From Auritidibacter sp. Marseille-P8566 (lineage in GTDB: Bacteria; Actinomycetota; Actinomycetes; Actinomycetales; Microbacteriaceae), in assembly GCA_945895375.1 (NCBI GenBank), contig CAMDEE010000001.1:218248-282247 (forward strand): a stretch of DNA of 64,000 nt, in the 5' to 3' direction. Numbering within the stretch: position 1 is the stretch's first letter; every line of letters starts with the position of its first letter. The translations under genes and the position numbers were made by a program. Positions 17-39,459 of the stretch are shown here, piece after piece. The notes beneath the pieces were generated by a model. The model had not been told where the DNA came from. It made no database searches and saw only the letters and a list, made by a program, of their open reading frames with translations.

Positions 17-1036
17 TTGTCATTATTGGGTTTAGGAGTGCTAGAAGACTTCGTAGGTCGCGAACAACAAGGGCTGAGTCAAGTGAACTATAAATCCAAG
101 GCACTTACCCTTTTGCTGGCCTGTTCCGTAGCCTCAGCGGCTAGTCCATCCATAGCTGAGGAGTACATCGGAGTTGAGGTGGAGGTTGCGAATGCTATCG
201 GAGCTCCTGAGATTAGGGCAGGGGTGAAAGTCCCCTTCGGCAAGAAGTCCGACGCGGCTATGGTGAGTTTCTCAATCAAGGGACTGGAACCTAGTAAACC
301 AGTATTATTCACAGTGTCACCATCCCCAGATGCAGTATCCCGCTTTGAATCTGACCCGCAGGGCTTACTCAACGTCAAGCTAGAACTTCCCTATGGTCTC
401 GAACCAGGACCACACGACATAGATGTTCTTACATTCTTTGGCTCTGAAGACGTTGCTGCTTCATACACTGTTGCCCGAATCTATGTCAATGACTTTGGCA
501 TTCTGACCGAGTCGGATGGCTCTTATCCGGCTGGGACCAAGCCGGCACAGGTACTTTTACCAAATTCAGAAGAACAGTTTCCAAACCCACCTACTTATCA
601 AACGATTCGTGGGACGTTGAGGGTTAGCGAACCTCAAGTAAAAATCCTGCAAGGCCTTCTACCAAGTGTTTCAGCTGTAATGTCATTCAACAACGACACC
701 AATTCGAATGTTGATTTAGAAGTAAAAATGACTCTCTTCACTCTTTTTGGAACTCCAGTCGGCGAGCCATTTTATTCGAAGATTGACAACCTTCCACCTG
801 AGGGAACTCAGGCAGTATTACTAAACTTTGCCGACTTACCGCCACTTGGTTTCTTCACGCTCAAAACAGAGTTGATTTTGCCGGACAGTTTTGTTTCAGA
901 TCAACCGGTCAAAACCTCCTATTCAAGTTCAATCTTTGCCCCAGCTCTTTCTGTTATTGGGTTACTTGTTCTGCTGCTGATTGTTGCAGCAGCAGTAAAG
1001 AGGACGAAGCGAAAATCCTATAGGCAGGTGCAGTAA
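17..1036 (+). CDS. Secreted/cell-surface protein with C-terminal TM helix (WxL-interacting/DUF916-like architecture possible)
   Basis: ORF; N-terminal hydrophobic signal (LTLLLACSVASAASPSIAEE), beta-rich body, C-terminal TM plus basic tail (LLVLLLIVAAAVKRTKRKS). TTG start uncertain. Confidence 0.6.
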   Translation: MSLLGLGVLEDFVGREQQGLSQVNYKSKALTLLLACSVASAASPSIAEEYIGVEVEVANAIGAPEIRAGVKVPFGKKSDAAMVSFSIKGLEPSKPVLFTVSPSPDAVSRFESDPQGLLNVKLELPYGLEPGPHDIDVLTFFGSEDVAASYTVARIYVNDFGILTESDGSYPAGTKPAQVLLPNSEEQFPNPPTYQTIRGTLRVSEPQVKILQGLLPSVSAVMSFNNDTNSNVDLEVKMTLFTLFGTPVGEPFYSKIDNLPPEGTQAVLLNFADLPPLGFFTLKTELILPDSFVSDQPVKTSYSSSIFAPALSVIGLLVLLLIVAAAVKRTKRKSYRQVQ

Positions 1037-1887
1037 TGAGAAGACTTGACCTGTCCTCTATGGCAAGTATCAGTAGAGGTGTTGTGACTTTGTCGCTGGC
1101 TTTCCTAATCAACTTTTTCCTAATCTCGCCATTGACTTTCGCAGCTGATCAGGTGCGCTTACAAAATGCCTTCTCTGTTCAAGTAAGTGCTGCCACTGCA
1201 CCAACTGGAGAGAAGGATTTCGAGAACTCTCTTCTCAAAGATGGAGCTCCAGTTGCCAGACTAGTAATCGATAAACTCGGCCTGGATGTGATCGTGGTTG
1301 AAGGAACTGACTCCAACACGATGCGAAGCGGGGTTGGTCACCGCAGGGATACTGTTTTGCCGGGACAAGAGGGTATGACCGTTCTATTTGGACGAGCCTG
1401 GTCGTATGGAGCGCCTTTTGGCAAACTTGCCCAACTGGAAGCAGGCGACACTTTCTTCGTTTATACAGGCCAAGGAAAGTCCGAATATGTTGTTACAGGA
1501 CTGCGTGAAGCTGGCGATAAGGGACTAGCACCAGTAAAGGCTGGAACCAACCATTTGGTTCTTACTACCGCTCAGGGAGAATTCTTTAGTCCAACTTCGG
1601 TTCTTCGAGTCGACGCCCAACTTCAAGGTATCGCTTTTGAGACAGGGCTAAGGGAAACCGAATGGGGCAGTATCCGCGCTGAGAGCCGAGAGCTTGCCAC
1701 AGATAACAGGTTTGTTTGGCTTCTAGTTTTGAATCTCCTTTTATTGCTGCTTGTGCAAATAGGTTTCATTTGGTTTGCAAGAAAGTTTGGTAGCACGAAA
1801 GCGTGGATAGTTTTTTCACCAATTCTCGGTTTAGTGCTGGTTCTCTGCATTGATCAAGCAACTCGATTACTCCCGAATTTACTCTAG
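1036..1887 (+). CDS. Sortase-like membrane protein, apparently lacking catalytic His and Cys
   Basis: ORF overlapping the upstream stop; sortase-like core (PVARLVIDKLGLDVIV..., YGAPFGKLAQLEAGDTFFVYT, HLVLTTAQ) with C-terminal TMs; expected GH and TTC positions read GR and TTA. Confidence 0.65.
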   Translation: MRRLDLSSMASISRGVVTLSLAFLINFFLISPLTFAADQVRLQNAFSVQVSAATAPTGEKDFENSLLKDGAPVARLVIDKLGLDVIVVEGTDSNTMRSGVGHRRDTVLPGQEGMTVLFGRAWSYGAPFGKLAQLEAGDTFFVYTGQGKSEYVVTGLREAGDKGLAPVKAGTNHLVLTTAQGEFFSPTSVLRVDAQLQGIAFETGLRETEWGSIRAESRELATDNRFVWLLVLNLLLLLLVQIGFIWFARKFGSTKAWIVFSPILGLVLVLCIDQATRLLPNLL

Positions 1888-1901: not shown

Positions 1902-2693
1902 ATGTCAGCAAACTCGAATCTAGCAACTCTTGAAGCGACAGGAATCTCAGCCTGGTTTGGCGACAGACAGGTGCTGAACAATGTCTCACTGGTCATGCCC
2001 GCCGGTGTTATCACGTCTCTAATTGGACCATCGGGTTGTGGCAAGTCAACCTTCCTTAGAATCCTCAATAGAATGCATGAGCTAGTTCCATCCGCAAGTT
2101 TGGCTGGCGAGGTAAAACTTGATGGTGAAGATGTCTATGATCCAAACAAGAAAATTACTGAGGCACGAAGAAACATCGGAATGGTCTTCCAAAAGCCAAA
2201 CCCGTTCCCTGCGATGTCAATCTACGACAACGTTATTGCAGGGCTCAAGCTCACAGGTGTTGAAGCGGATCGTGACACTAAAGATGAACTAGTACAAACT
2301 TCACTGGAACGTGCGGGACTCTGGAATGAAGTAAAGAACCGCCTTAGAGCTCCAGGTGGTGGCCTATCAGGCGGTCAACAGCAACGACTCTGTATCGCGA
2401 GATCCCTTGCCATTAAACCCCGTGTTCTGCTAATGGACGAACCTTGTTCAGCGCTCGATCCAACTTCGACAAGAGTCATTGAAGAAACTATGCTCGAGTT
2501 GGTTCAGGATGTGACTATCGTAATTGTTACTCACAACATGCAACAGGCACAAAGAGTTTCTCAGCAGTGTGCTTTCTTCTTAGCCTCGCAAGGCACACCC
2601 GGGGTTATTGTCGAGTACGGTGACACTGATGCTATGTTTAGTTTCCCTCAGGACCCTAGAACCACGGACTATGTGAATGGTCGATTTGGCTAG
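1902..2693 (+). CDS. pstB: Phosphate ABC transporter ATP-binding protein
   Basis: Walker A GPSGCGKST, signature LSGGQQQR, Walker B VLLMDEPCSALDP; PstB-type GMVFQKPNPFPAMSIYDNV. Confidence 0.9.
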   Translation: MSANSNLATLEATGISAWFGDRQVLNNVSLVMPAGVITSLIGPSGCGKSTFLRILNRMHELVPSASLAGEVKLDGEDVYDPNKKITEARRNIGMVFQKPNPFPAMSIYDNVIAGLKLTGVEADRDTKDELVQTSLERAGLWNEVKNRLRAPGGGLSGGQQQRLCIARSLAIKPRVLLMDEPCSALDPTSTRVIEETMLELVQDVTIVIVTHNMQQAQRVSQQCAFFLASQGTPGVIVEYGDTDAMFSFPQDPRTTDYVNGRFG

Positions 2694-2713: not shown

Positions 2714-4561
2714 TTATTTGACCGCAGTCTTGGTAAAAATCTCAAAGCCAAATGCAGGAAGTGTTAGCTCGTAGGATGTGGCAGTCATTCTGACTGACCT
2801 ACCATCCGAATATTTGAATTGAGTTCCGGTAACCCCCGAATTGAATCTGGCCTTGAGTGTTTTACTGCTCAGATTGACAACCACCAAAACAGTATTTGTT
2901 GATGTGGATCTACTGAACGCGAAGAGGCTGTTAGATGTGGTTGTTAGGACACGAGCTGTCCCACCAAATTTTTCATTGAAGAGCGCGGCATTTGCCTTTT
3001 TGAGCTTAATAAGTTTTTGGTACTGAGCAAAAGTAGCAGGTGCTCTTGTGGGCCAAACAATGAAGTCACTATCAAATGGCTTGAGAGCCTTAATGGAACC
3101 AACCTCTTGACCTTGAAAAATAACCGGAGCTCCAGGCATGGTAAAACTCAACATCGCAGCAGCACTCAGAGAGGCCGCAAACCTTGCGGTTTCAGTTTTT
3201 CCAGCCTCCATGGTCTTATAACTGCTCAAGTGATTGAGGGGCAGGGAAGGCGATTTGTATTTAGACACCTCTGAATTCAACAAGGTTGTTAGCTGGGCTT
3301 TCGTTCTGGTGCCTGTGCGCAGAAGAGCGAGAGAGTCCAGCAACGTGCTGTTGGAGGTTAGCGTGAGGCTGTTGGTGAAGTAACCACTTTTTATCTCATC
3401 AGTTGTACCCAGAGCTAGGCTTTTTGTACGCTGCAGCCTAAAGGTTAGCTCGTCCAGAAAATCCCTAGGAACAGATGTGGCACCAGAGAAAATGAATCCA
3501 TCGATGTCGTAGCCCGTAACCCAGCTCTTGAGGTCTTCAATCATCGCTTGTCGAAGTTCCTCTTGCTGGTATTCGTAGTATGACAAATATTCTTTCGAAG
3601 GAACTGGCTCTAAGTTGAATGCGCTATTTCTCTTGAACCAGCTTGATTTTGAGACTGACCACTGATGATCTATCGCCGCTGTCTCCAACGGTACAGTGAG
3701 CAAAACCTTCAATCCAGACGCCTTAGCCGAAGTCATGAACGACTTGAAACTAGTGGCAGTTCCTAGCGATGGATTCACTTTGGAAAGGTCTGTGCTGGCA
3801 AAAACCGAACCCAGAGTTCCCACCATTTTACTTTTACCGATCGGGAAAATTGGATTGATGATTACAGCTTCGACGCCGAGCGTTTTTAGCTCTTTGAGGC
3901 GGGCAGCAGCTCCGGCGAAGTTCCTTGTCGCAGAGTACTGCCTAATATTCATTTCATAGAATACGCTGTCATTCATCCAGGTTGGGTTCACAGCTGGTCG
4001 CAGAGAACCTGCGACATTGGCCGTCATGTACATCGCTACCCTTTTACCCACAGCCACATTTCCCGTGCCAAGGGTGGTTTGGACCAATATGGCGGCCTTG
4101 TATCCTCCTGGGTACGCGTCTTTAGGCACGGTAATTTCGATAGGAACCACTACCGACTTACCAGCAGCAACGGTGACGTTGAAATCAGCGGCTTTCTTGG
4201 ATCCAAAAAGAGCCCAACTAGCCATACCAAAAGGCTTAGAATCAGTCGCGGAGATAAGTGTGGTTTGCCCATCTTCTGCAAGTTGAGTGAATCGGGCAAA
4301 GACTAGAAGTACCAGTGATCTACTACCTGTATTGCTGATTAACACATTGTCTGACTTCTTAGCGCCAACGCTGAGCGAGCCAAATTCGATCTGGGTGCGC
4401 GACGAGTCAGCTTTACCGTCTTTAGCCGCGGATATTGAGAAAACGTCATTTCCGAAAGCAGGTGATGCATAGTGAGGAGATAAGGTAGTCGAGCTGATTG
4501 CCAGAACAGACATAGCCGAGAGCCAAATAGCTAGCCTGCCTCGTTGCTTACCCATAATCAC
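2714..4561 (-). CDS. Secreted GH13 (alpha-amylase)-like protein with N-terminal beta domain; likely catalytically degenerate
   Basis: Signal peptide; NDSVFYEMNIRQYSATRNFAGAAARLKELKTLGVEAVIINPIFP is GH13-like; SFTMPGAPVIFQGQEVG near C-terminus; catalytic motifs altered. Confidence 0.7.
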   Translation of the reverse strand: MIMGKQRGRLAIWLSAMSVLAISSTTLSPHYASPAFGNDVFSISAAKDGKADSSRTQIEFGSLSVGAKKSDNVLISNTGSRSLVLLVFARFTQLAEDGQTTLISATDSKPFGMASWALFGSKKAADFNVTVAAGKSVVVPIEITVPKDAYPGGYKAAILVQTTLGTGNVAVGKRVAMYMTANVAGSLRPAVNPTWMNDSVFYEMNIRQYSATRNFAGAAARLKELKTLGVEAVIINPIFPIGKSKMVGTLGSVFASTDLSKVNPSLGTATSFKSFMTSAKASGLKVLLTVPLETAAIDHQWSVSKSSWFKRNSAFNLEPVPSKEYLSYYEYQQEELRQAMIEDLKSWVTGYDIDGFIFSGATSVPRDFLDELTFRLQRTKSLALGTTDEIKSGYFTNSLTLTSNSTLLDSLALLRTGTRTKAQLTTLLNSEVSKYKSPSLPLNHLSSYKTMEAGKTETARFAASLSAAAMLSFTMPGAPVIFQGQEVGSIKALKPFDSDFIVWPTRAPATFAQYQKLIKLKKANAALFNEKFGGTARVLTTTSNSLFAFSRSTSTNTVLVVVNLSSKTLKARFNSGVTGTQFKYSDGRSVRMTATSYELTLPAFGFEIFTKTAVK

Positions 4562-4575
4562 AGCTTAAATCTAAG

Positions 4576-6492
4576 CTACTTGACCTGCTTCGTTGAGTAA
4601 ATTAGGTATCCATTGGCTGGGATGGAAACAGTCTGCGAACTAGCAAGAGAGATCTTTTTGCCGGTTGCAAAATCATAAACCGTGAGCTTTGATCCAAACG
4701 AAACCTTAGTTGTTATAGCCTTAGCACTCAAGTTGGTTAGGTAGAACACAGTTCCCGCAGAACTTGAACGCTTGAATGCGAACACGGACTTGGATGCTGC
4801 CGTAACGCTTGTAGCAGTTCCAGATAGCAGGACGGTGTTAGTCTTTCTCAACTTGGAAAGCTTCGTGATTAGTGCTGTCGTTGCAGGAGCTTTAGTAGGC
4901 CAGCTAATTGAATCGACGTCAAATGGCTTTAAAGCTTTAGCTAAAGCGATCTCTTGTCCAGCATTCAGCAAAGGAGCACCTGGAGCCACAAAGGTAAGGG
5001 CGATAGCGCTGTTCAGATACTTGCCAAATCTGGTTGCATCTGTTTTGCCGAGAGAGGCTGTGACTGAGTCCGTGGTGAAGTTCAGGTTCGTTGAAGTCTT
5101 ACCTGAGGTGCCAAGGTTCTTCAAGGCAGTCGCCCAGGTTGAACTAGACGTGTTTCCCTTCGACAGGGTTCCCAGGGTTGTCAAGAAGTCGCTTCTTTTC
5201 ACAACGCTAAAGGCGTTCTTGGTTTGACTTGAGGTGACAGGGCTGTTGGTTAGAAAGACAATAGGACGTACTAGGTTAATCCTGTAGGCCGCCTCGTTCC
5301 AAAACTCAGAAGTTTGCTTTGAAGCGTTAGCTGAGGCGATTCCGTCAAATTCAAACTTCGTTACCCAGTTCTTCATCTGAGTAATTAGCTCAGCTCTTAA
5401 CTCTGGAACGCTGTAATCAAGCATCGTTGCGTACGGCATGCCTGCAGGACGTACGGCGTTTAGGCCGCTGTATTGGAACCAATCAGGCTTTTCGCTAACC
5501 CAGGTTGAGTCATTACCGATGTGACCTGATACCCAAGTCAGGACAACCTTGATCTCTGCAGCATGAGCCGCTGAGATTAGTTCGATCAAATCGGCTTCAG
5601 TTCCAAGCGCTTCATTTATTGATGCAGTAGTGCTAGGTGCATAAATGTTGCCAATAGTGCCTGGTTTTCCAGTCTGTGAAACTGGGAAGATTGGTTCGAG
5701 CACTATCACACCAACGCCCAATGCTTTCAGTGCCGAGATTCTTGCGGTCACACCTTTGAAGTCTCTAGTTGAACTGAAGGTTCTGACATCTAAGTTGTAA
5801 TACAACGAGTTTTTAGACCAAGTTGTCGAAGTTGCTGGGCTAAGTGTAAGACCTTCAGTACCAAGTCCTAGGGTCGGATCCACTTCACCACCGTCATCGC
5901 CACCACCGTCATCGCCACCACCGTCGCCACCACCGGAGCCGTCGCTATTTGGTAATGCTTTCCAAGCTCCGGTCCCTGCGGTTACATCAATGTATCGGTA
6001 CCAGGAATTGATTACTGTTACACCGTTGTTTGTAGTACAAGCAACACCCAGGCTGTACTGCCCACCGACTGACTTGATGGATGACTGAGGCAACAGAATA
6101 GGAATAATGTTGGCTGCTGGAGTGAAATTAACTTCTAGCAGGTTCTTCGATCCAGCAGGGAAAATCTGTGATGCCGCAGCGTTCCAACCGGTTAGGCCGA
6201 CTCGTTCCTGCCCCCGGTTAGATATAAAGGTGTATGCACCAGTAGCAGAAGCAGGGCAGGTGAACGCATCGCTAGCGTTCTCGGCCGATTCCGATGCATA
6301 AACCTCAGCATCAAAAGCCCAAGAGAAGTCTGTTTGTTCAAGATTGTAAGAACCGTTGTATAGATACACTGGCCCGTCGGAACCTGTCGTGAACTGAGCA
6401 TTACTCGGGCTGGTGTGTATGAAGTAGGCGACCGAAGCCACGGCGATAGCCAGAGCTGTAGCGGAAGAGACCACCTTGTGTTTGAGGGACAT
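4576..6492 (-). CDS. Secreted GH13-like protein with Gly/Asp-rich linker; likely catalytically degenerate; paralogue of the 2714-4561 product
   Basis: Signal peptide; NSLYYNLDVRTFSSTRDFKGVTARISALKALGVGVIVLEPIFP; linker GSGGGDGGGDDGGGDDGGEVDP; FVAPGAPLLNAGQEIA. Confidence 0.7.
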   Translation of the reverse strand: MSLKHKVVSSATALAIAVASVAYFIHTSPSNAQFTTGSDGPVYLYNGSYNLEQTDFSWAFDAEVYASESAENASDAFTCPASATGAYTFISNRGQERVGLTGWNAAASQIFPAGSKNLLEVNFTPAANIIPILLPQSSIKSVGGQYSLGVACTTNNGVTVINSWYRYIDVTAGTGAWKALPNSDGSGGGDGGGDDGGGDDGGEVDPTLGLGTEGLTLSPATSTTWSKNSLYYNLDVRTFSSTRDFKGVTARISALKALGVGVIVLEPIFPVSQTGKPGTIGNIYAPSTTASINEALGTEADLIELISAAHAAEIKVVLTWVSGHIGNDSTWVSEKPDWFQYSGLNAVRPAGMPYATMLDYSVPELRAELITQMKNWVTKFEFDGIASANASKQTSEFWNEAAYRINLVRPIVFLTNSPVTSSQTKNAFSVVKRSDFLTTLGTLSKGNTSSSTWATALKNLGTSGKTSTNLNFTTDSVTASLGKTDATRFGKYLNSAIALTFVAPGAPLLNAGQEIALAKALKPFDVDSISWPTKAPATTALITKLSKLRKTNTVLLSGTATSVTAASKSVFAFKRSSSAGTVFYLTNLSAKAITTKVSFGSKLTVYDFATGKKISLASSQTVSIPANGYLIYSTKQVK

Positions 6493-38728: not shown

Positions 38729-39459
38729 GTGACATTCAAGTCCTCCCCGATGGAACCAGAATTATCTGGGCACCGATTCAAAGACCAAAACCGTTTGCAT
38801 TTGTGACCCAGGTCACAGGTGAACTACTTATAACCTTCGGTGTTGTCCTGATGCTTTTTGTTGGATACAAAACGTTGCTCCAAGACTCCTTAGTTGGCTC
38901 CTCACAGTCTGACTATGCGGCTAACTTCGAGAATAAGGATGGCTTCGTCCCGCTCGATCAAGTTTCTCAAGAGGCAGATATTTTTGGACGCATGTATGTT
39001 CCTAGATTTGGCGAGCAGTGGACTCGTCTTATTGCTGAAGGTACCAGGTGGTATCCAGTGCTGAATGAGATCGGCATTGGTCGTTACTCAAGATCGGAAA
39101 TGCCTGGTGAAGTAGGTAACTTTGCTGTTGCAGCTCACCGAGGTGGTTTTGGTGGAGCATTCAGAGACATAGACAAACTAGTAACGGGGGATCGTGTTTA
39201 CATCGAAACTAAAGATACTTGGTTTATCTATACATTTTTAGAAACAGAGGTAGTCAAGCCCTACGAGGTTGGAGTAATTGATTCAGTTCCTGAAAAACTT
39301 GATGTTGCTGTTGTAGGTGGTCGGTATCTGACCATGACAAGCTGCACACCTATCTTCATCAACACCGACAGAATCATTTCTTGGTTTGAACTTGAGAGAG
39401 AGCAGCCACGTTCAGCGGGCATGCCATACGATCTCAAAGTAGTGATTGGATCTCGATAA
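38725..39459 (+). CDS. Class E-like sortase
   Basis: N-terminal TM; AVAAHRGGFGGAF, LTMTSCTP, NTDRIISW supply His, Cys and Arg. Confidence 0.88.
   Translation: MSDIQVLPDGTRIIWAPIQRPKPFAFVTQVTGELLITFGVVLMLFVGYKTLLQDSLVGSSQSDYAANFENKDGFVPLDQVSQEADIFGRMYVPRFGEQWTRLIAEGTRWYPVLNEIGIGRYSRSEMPGEVGNFAVAAHRGGFGGAFRDIDKLVTGDRVYIETKDTWFIYTFLETEVVKPYEVGVIDSVPEKLDVAVVGGRYLTMTSCTPIFINTDRIISWFELEREQPRSAGMPYDLKVVIGSR

Follow-up and report, generated by a model that had tools for sequence, protein, structure and literature searches.

The window, i.e. the whole 64,000-nucleotide stretch of DNA that was analysed, contains two adjacent genes on the same strand, here named T1 and T2, which encode secreted proteins with a GH13 (alpha-amylase) fold. 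They are convergent to an operon that combines phosphate transport (pst) genes with genes for WxL/WxLIP-type proteins and a sortase-fold protein, of which the last three genes lie entirely in the window (Table 1). T1 is downstream of T2, with a gap of 14 bases between the ORFs. Both products have signal-peptide-like N termini, which predicts that they are exported.

Table 1. Features of the T1/T2 locus, with positions given in the window.
Feature	Position	Strand	Remarks
339-aa secreted protein with a C-terminal TM helix, adjoining WxLIP	17..1036	+	No Pfam match above cut-off
Sortase-fold protein (pseudosortase)	1036..1887	+	Without catalytic His (aGHr replaced by FGRA) or Cys (TLxTC replaced by TTA)
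pstB, phosphate ABC transporter ATPase, final gene of the operon	1902..2693	+	92% identical in G018
T1, secreted GH13-fold pseudoenzyme	2714..4561	-	615 aa, GTG start; ORF, Pfam matches, lost motifs
T1 GH13-like barrel and C-domain	2717..3979	-	Residues 195-615
T1 N-domain, DUF916/WxLIP peptidoglycan-binding-domain-like beta sandwich	3998..4447	-	Residues 39-188; similarity to operon WxLIP
T2, secreted GH13-fold pseudoenzyme	4576..6492	-	638 aa, ATG start; ORF, Pfam match, lost motifs
T2 GH13-like barrel and C-domain	4579..5832	-	Residues 221-638
T2 Gly/Asp linker	5887..5937	-	Sequence
T2 N-domain, module of the N terminus of the operon's 447-aa WxL-like protein	5965..6393	-	Residues ∼34-176; genus-wide search

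Both proteins match the Pfam Alpha-amylase family above cut-off (7e-14 for T1 and 4e-12 for T2), with an additional match to Malt_amylase_C in T1. Their best PDB matches are the amylases 4gkl and 3dhu (down to 1e-21), and human 4F2hc is among the phmmer matches of T1. T1 and T2 are 33% identical across the GH13 part, and both belong to the GH13 fold, since homology spans the barrel and the C-domain (∼415 columns). The original prediction had correctly recognised the PGAP..GQE landmark of GH13, and alignment shows that the scaffold residues of the barrel are kept; the Gly/Asp linker that it described in T2 is present as well. AlphaFold models computed from five-row alignments have pLDDT values of 47 (T1) and 40 (T2), too poor for superposition or for analysis of a pocket; the T1 N-domain is modelled as a beta sandwich, with pLDDT ∼70-80 across much of residues 40-160. 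A scan of genome contigs gave the record of genome G011 as the sole match, and a search of viral contigs for relatives found none.

As a control for erosion of the active site, we used C5, an intact secreted GH13 paralogue of 451 aa encoded by the same genome (L010:4685-6040). C5 displays the motifs FDWVANH, GYRCDAAG, LAED, and TNHDENS, all of which are kept, wherever the region is covered, in the C5-type homologues of ∼20 further genomes of the genus. In T1 and T2, respectively, D/N/H in region I is replaced by T/E/T and T/G/H, R..D in region II by I..S and A..A, Glu in region III by Thr and Asn, and H-D in region IV by Y-K and S-V. The positions of the region I Asp, nucleophile, acid/base, and stabiliser are occupied by T289, S359, T387, and K449 in T1, and by T319, A388, N416, and V477 in T2. 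Neither protein has the triad of active GH13 enzymes (nucleophile Asp, acid/base Glu, and stabilising Asp). In an independent test, T1, T2, and the intact family were aligned apart before profile-profile comparison. This revealed the same residue losses (E 7.6e-98 and 2.5e-94, range 1e-98 to 1e-90, ∼415 columns), and motif loss is therefore no artefact of a single alignment. The eroded regions I-IV of the original prediction are thus borne out by C5, by its homologues in the genus, and by profile-profile alignment.

We also compared, using Fisher's test, 8 active-site columns that are invariant in intact relatives with 89 other invariant columns. T1 retains 0/8 versus 49/89 (p = 0.003), and T2 2/8 versus 52/89 (p = 0.13, not significant alone), the two exceptions being the −1 Tyr and the region I His. 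An eroded GH13 protein in genome G065 retains 1/8 versus 62/89 (p = 0.002). Scaffold residues that are kept include, in C5 numbering, W31, Y38, R43, P73, N99, D134, W137, W144, W184, and D191-G192, together with PGxP and GQE; the invariant Trp 160, 242, and 290 are gone as well. In genome G030, T1 has already lost the Glu and the Asp of region I but still has Asp at the nucleophile position and the D of the NHD motif, which fits a stepwise loss. Judged from these alignments, it is near certain that T1 and T2 are without catalysis.

The original prediction also proposed a structural or glycan-binding role at the surface for this pair of amylase-fold pseudoenzymes. A structural or binding role at the surface is supported by motif loss with the scaffold kept, purifying selection (see below), and the presence of wall/complex modules at the N termini. 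Glycan binding in particular is more doubtful: so few residues of the canonical −1 sugar site are left that sugar is unlikely to bind there in either protein. A broader version, in which the barrels are lectins that bind alpha-glucans or polymers of the wall through sites still left in the cleft or on the surface, could draw on the retained fold and Malt_amylase_C domain, on the two residues kept by T2, and on the putative sugar-binding domains found in WxL clusters of other Gram-positives (PMC1534035). We nevertheless regard it as unlikely, given how few of the −1 subsite residues are retained and the loss of the three invariant Trp.

The operon begins to the left of the window, and most of it lies outside. 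Its order is pstC-pstA-pstS-two PBP-like proteins-WxL-like protein-WxLIP-membrane protein-"sortase"-pstB. The products include PstS (530 aa), PBP-like proteins of 823 and 438 aa (a label given from place and look, as Pfam gave no match), a secreted WxL-like protein (447 aa), and a 343-aa protein matching PF06030 WxLIP_PGBD at 8.5e-7. The 438-aa protein (L009:4528-5844) has 528 aa in G011 (L050:16966-18552), with extra mid-sequence. Three orthologues of the 447-aa protein in the taxonomic family match PF13731 (WxL) below cut-off (E 0.001, 0.0014, and 0.03) and the protein itself is unmatched; the GWxL motif and the C-terminal end are conserved among its relatives, and its C-terminal part looks WxL-like. 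The same operon order was found in 20 regions of other genomes of the family, some members being undetected in some, and a shorter form (pst genes, 823-like protein, sortase-fold protein, and pstB) in other regions. Homologues of the 823-aa protein occur in 79 of the 400 family genomes and 33 of the 85 genera. The genome analysed here (G000; ∼1.43 Mb in 19 contigs) is that of an actinobacterium, probably a member of the Microbacteriaceae living in a lake. It has a second pst operon (L076, C3:48000-62000), in which an 823-like protein and a further pseudosortase are encoded together with a secreted repeat protein of 734 aa.

Annotating the sortase-fold protein as a sortase would mislead, because it has no catalytic residues. 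In its homologues from pst-type regions in the family, Arg stands where the catalytic His would be expected (33/33), versus His in all 14 canonical sortases recovered from that set of genomes. The Cys of the TLxTC motif is absent from all 33; its column is shifted by one position in the alignment, with no nearby Cys in any operon-linked copy shown. At the level of the class, Arg and no Cys were found in 24/24 loci examined (the window's own included), and pstB is next door in most of the loci with enough flank on that side. All aligned copies (that in the window, L076:6116-7090, L109-L138, and L175-L198) are without His and Cys. By sequence, then, a pseudosortase is a conserved component of the pst operon, family- and class-wide among aligned copies. 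We found no precedent in the open-access literature for pst plus sortase, or for a pst-linked pseudosortase. The operon is conserved in the family and can still be recognised at the level of the class, and the part that the sortase-fold protein may play in phosphate uptake lends itself to direct testing. A separate putative sortase gene in the window (∼38992-39387, + strand; G000:C1:257239-257634) gives a near full-length match to PF04203.

The N-domains of T1 and T2 relate both genes to this operon. The original prediction was right that T1 has a DUF916-like N-domain, which is 30% identical (E 2e-18) to the 343-aa WxLIP, its match to PF06030 itself being weak (E 0.14). The N-domain of T2 is 43% identical (E 2e-29) to that of the 447-aa WxL-like protein. 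T1 and T2 therefore carry two different modules, each akin to a different operon protein. That the two N termini differ had been noted in the original prediction, which missed their relatedness to the operon, a cluster largely beyond the window. The T1+T2 pair is present in 4/67 genomes of the genus, and the gene for the 447-aa protein in five (G000, G011, G018, G030, and G065), exactly those with eroded GH13 proteins, a co-occurrence among five related genomes for which phylogeny alone could account in part. T1/T2 and the operon are syntenic in G000, G011, and G018; in G030 the genes are on separate short contigs. In G065, the product of the gene convergent to pstB has 854 aa and combines two N-domains of the T2 type with a triad-less GH13 (GWNAQA, GFSFVNA, and NND). 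Two more secreted proteins with T2 N-domains, one followed by Ig-like repeats, are encoded in the same convergent place of G065 (L075:884-2775). The convergent spot beside pstB looks like a slot for accessory cargo. Between G000 and G018, T1/T2 have diverged about as fast as the extracellular parts of the operon (54-59% versus 46-77% identity). A search for a Pho-box common to the upstream regions of T2 and pstC gave a best 14-mer match that equals shuffles, and a promoter/terminator scan found no more than chance.

A block of ∼9 kb, from the WxL-like gene to T2 (window ∼-2200 to ∼6700), is mostly 94-100% identical between G000 (C1) and G011 (L050), versus mostly 55-85% in the flanks on both sides. 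Similarly, dS between the two genomes is 0.86 for purA and 0.05-0.10 for genes within the block, which appears to have been exchanged as a single unit by recent recombination between the two species. A chimeric contig is unlikely, because the breakpoints flank a functional block at both ends. The dN/dS ratios (G000 versus G011) are 0.142 (CI 0.07-0.22) for T1 and 0.136 (CI 0.08-0.24) for T2, equal to that of the intact amylase in its own genome versus G021 (0.136); distant pairs (G018 and G030) were left out because dS saturates. The recombined block, its occurrence in a minority of the genomes of the genus, and outer parts that diverge far faster than pstB might suggest a variable surface layer, i.e. 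a flexible island exchanged between strains and maintained because it helps in adhesion or in evading phages, not in phosphate uptake. This seems rather improbable to us, since pstB and the pseudosortase are part of the block, dN/dS is low, and any surface system normally changes faster on the outside of the cell than on the inside.

Two further readings concern T1 and T2 themselves. That they might still be enzymes, whose catalytic apparatus is unusual or has moved elsewhere, would agree with their intact barrel and GQE motif and with BmaN1, an active GH13 enzyme with an aberrant triad (PMC5347038). There is very little to recommend this, as BmaN1 changed one of its three residues, whereas T1 and T2 each lost all three carboxylates, the Arg, and the region IV His. 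Decaying pseudogenes, which a lost active site and patchy distribution might bring to mind, are ruled out by dN/dS well below 1, full-length open frames, and a T1/T2 tandem conserved across four species (on separate contigs in G030). Frames are also open in G011, G030 (T2), and G018 (T1), contig ends cutting the other copies. Considering these frames and dN/dS ∼0.14, T1 and T2 are, by sequence, under purifying selection and not decaying. In phylogenetic trees, T1 and T2 form clades with support of 100/100 each and are sisters at 100/99. The G065 protein joins them at 94/88, below the star threshold and on a long branch, making one origin for the pseudoenzyme lineage (T1, T2, and G065) plausible.

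On balance, we favour, as a probable though far from settled reading, that T1 and T2 are GH13 pseudoenzymes co-opted into a phosphate-uptake/WxL surface complex, in which they would be attached to the wall and have no catalytic task. On this view, a secreted amylase was duplicated, and the copy was captured beside the operon, lost catalysis, and was joined to operon-related modules: DUF916/WxLIP for T1 and, for T2, the N-domain known from the WxL-like protein. Peptidoglycan and WxL domains are the proposed ligands of DUF916 (WxLIP) (PMC10599100). T1 may dock via its DUF916-like domain, and T2 via its WxL-like-protein module, onto a wall/WxL complex. This would bring the dead barrels to the surface of the cell, next to the Pst system, each a bulky scaffold or partner-binding ectodomain for its surface machinery, with a function like that of the 4F2hc/rBAT ectodomains on amino-acid transporters. 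We infer this docking, and a scaffold role in phosphate capture, from triad loss, purifying selection, common modules, common location, and joint transfer seen in the sequences, the Pst link coming from genome context. Several points count against it: T1/T2 are on the opposite strand to the operon, the search for a regulatory motif in common with pstC found none, the N-domain of T1 matches Pfam DUF916 itself only weakly, and T1 of G030 keeps two catalytic-column residues. More tentatively, actinomycetes might possess a phosphate-uptake surface machine consisting of pst genes, WxL/WxLIP-type proteins, and an obligate pseudosortase, to which one aquatic lineage added dead-amylase docking ectodomains. 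If true, this would be a bacterial counterpart to the subunits with an amylase fold that animal amino-acid transporters have. There seems to be no earlier description of GH13 pseudoenzymes from bacteria in a defined genomic system, as we found no precedent for them in the open-access literature on GH13 pseudoenzymes. With a working amylase relative in the same genome, nature provides the control needed to follow the change of an enzyme into a structural component.

Among known systems, GH13 alpha-amylases (4gkl, 3dhu, and C5) share with T1/T2 the barrel and C-domain over ∼415 columns, secretion, and scaffold motifs, whereas T1/T2 are without the triad, region II Arg, and NHD, and add N-terminal modules. 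Plant isoamylase 2 (9xvi), the third-best PDB match of T1, is likewise non-catalytic, but it acts in starch synthesis as a partner of ISA1. The SLC3 heavy chains 4F2hc and rBAT also have GH13-fold ectodomains, which are tied to the stability and trafficking of amino-acid transporters (PMC8537225). They are, however, membrane glycoproteins of animals and are bound to SLC7, whereas T1/T2 come from a bacterium, are exported, carry WxL/WxLIP-type modules, and are linked to Pst by genome context only. Finally, WxL/WxLIP (Csc) clusters (PMC1534035, PMC10599100) resemble the operon described here in encoding a DUF916 protein with a TM helix and a WxL-like protein in one operon, but the latter is actinobacterial, is joined with pst genes and a pseudosortase, and has GH13 pseudoenzymes alongside.
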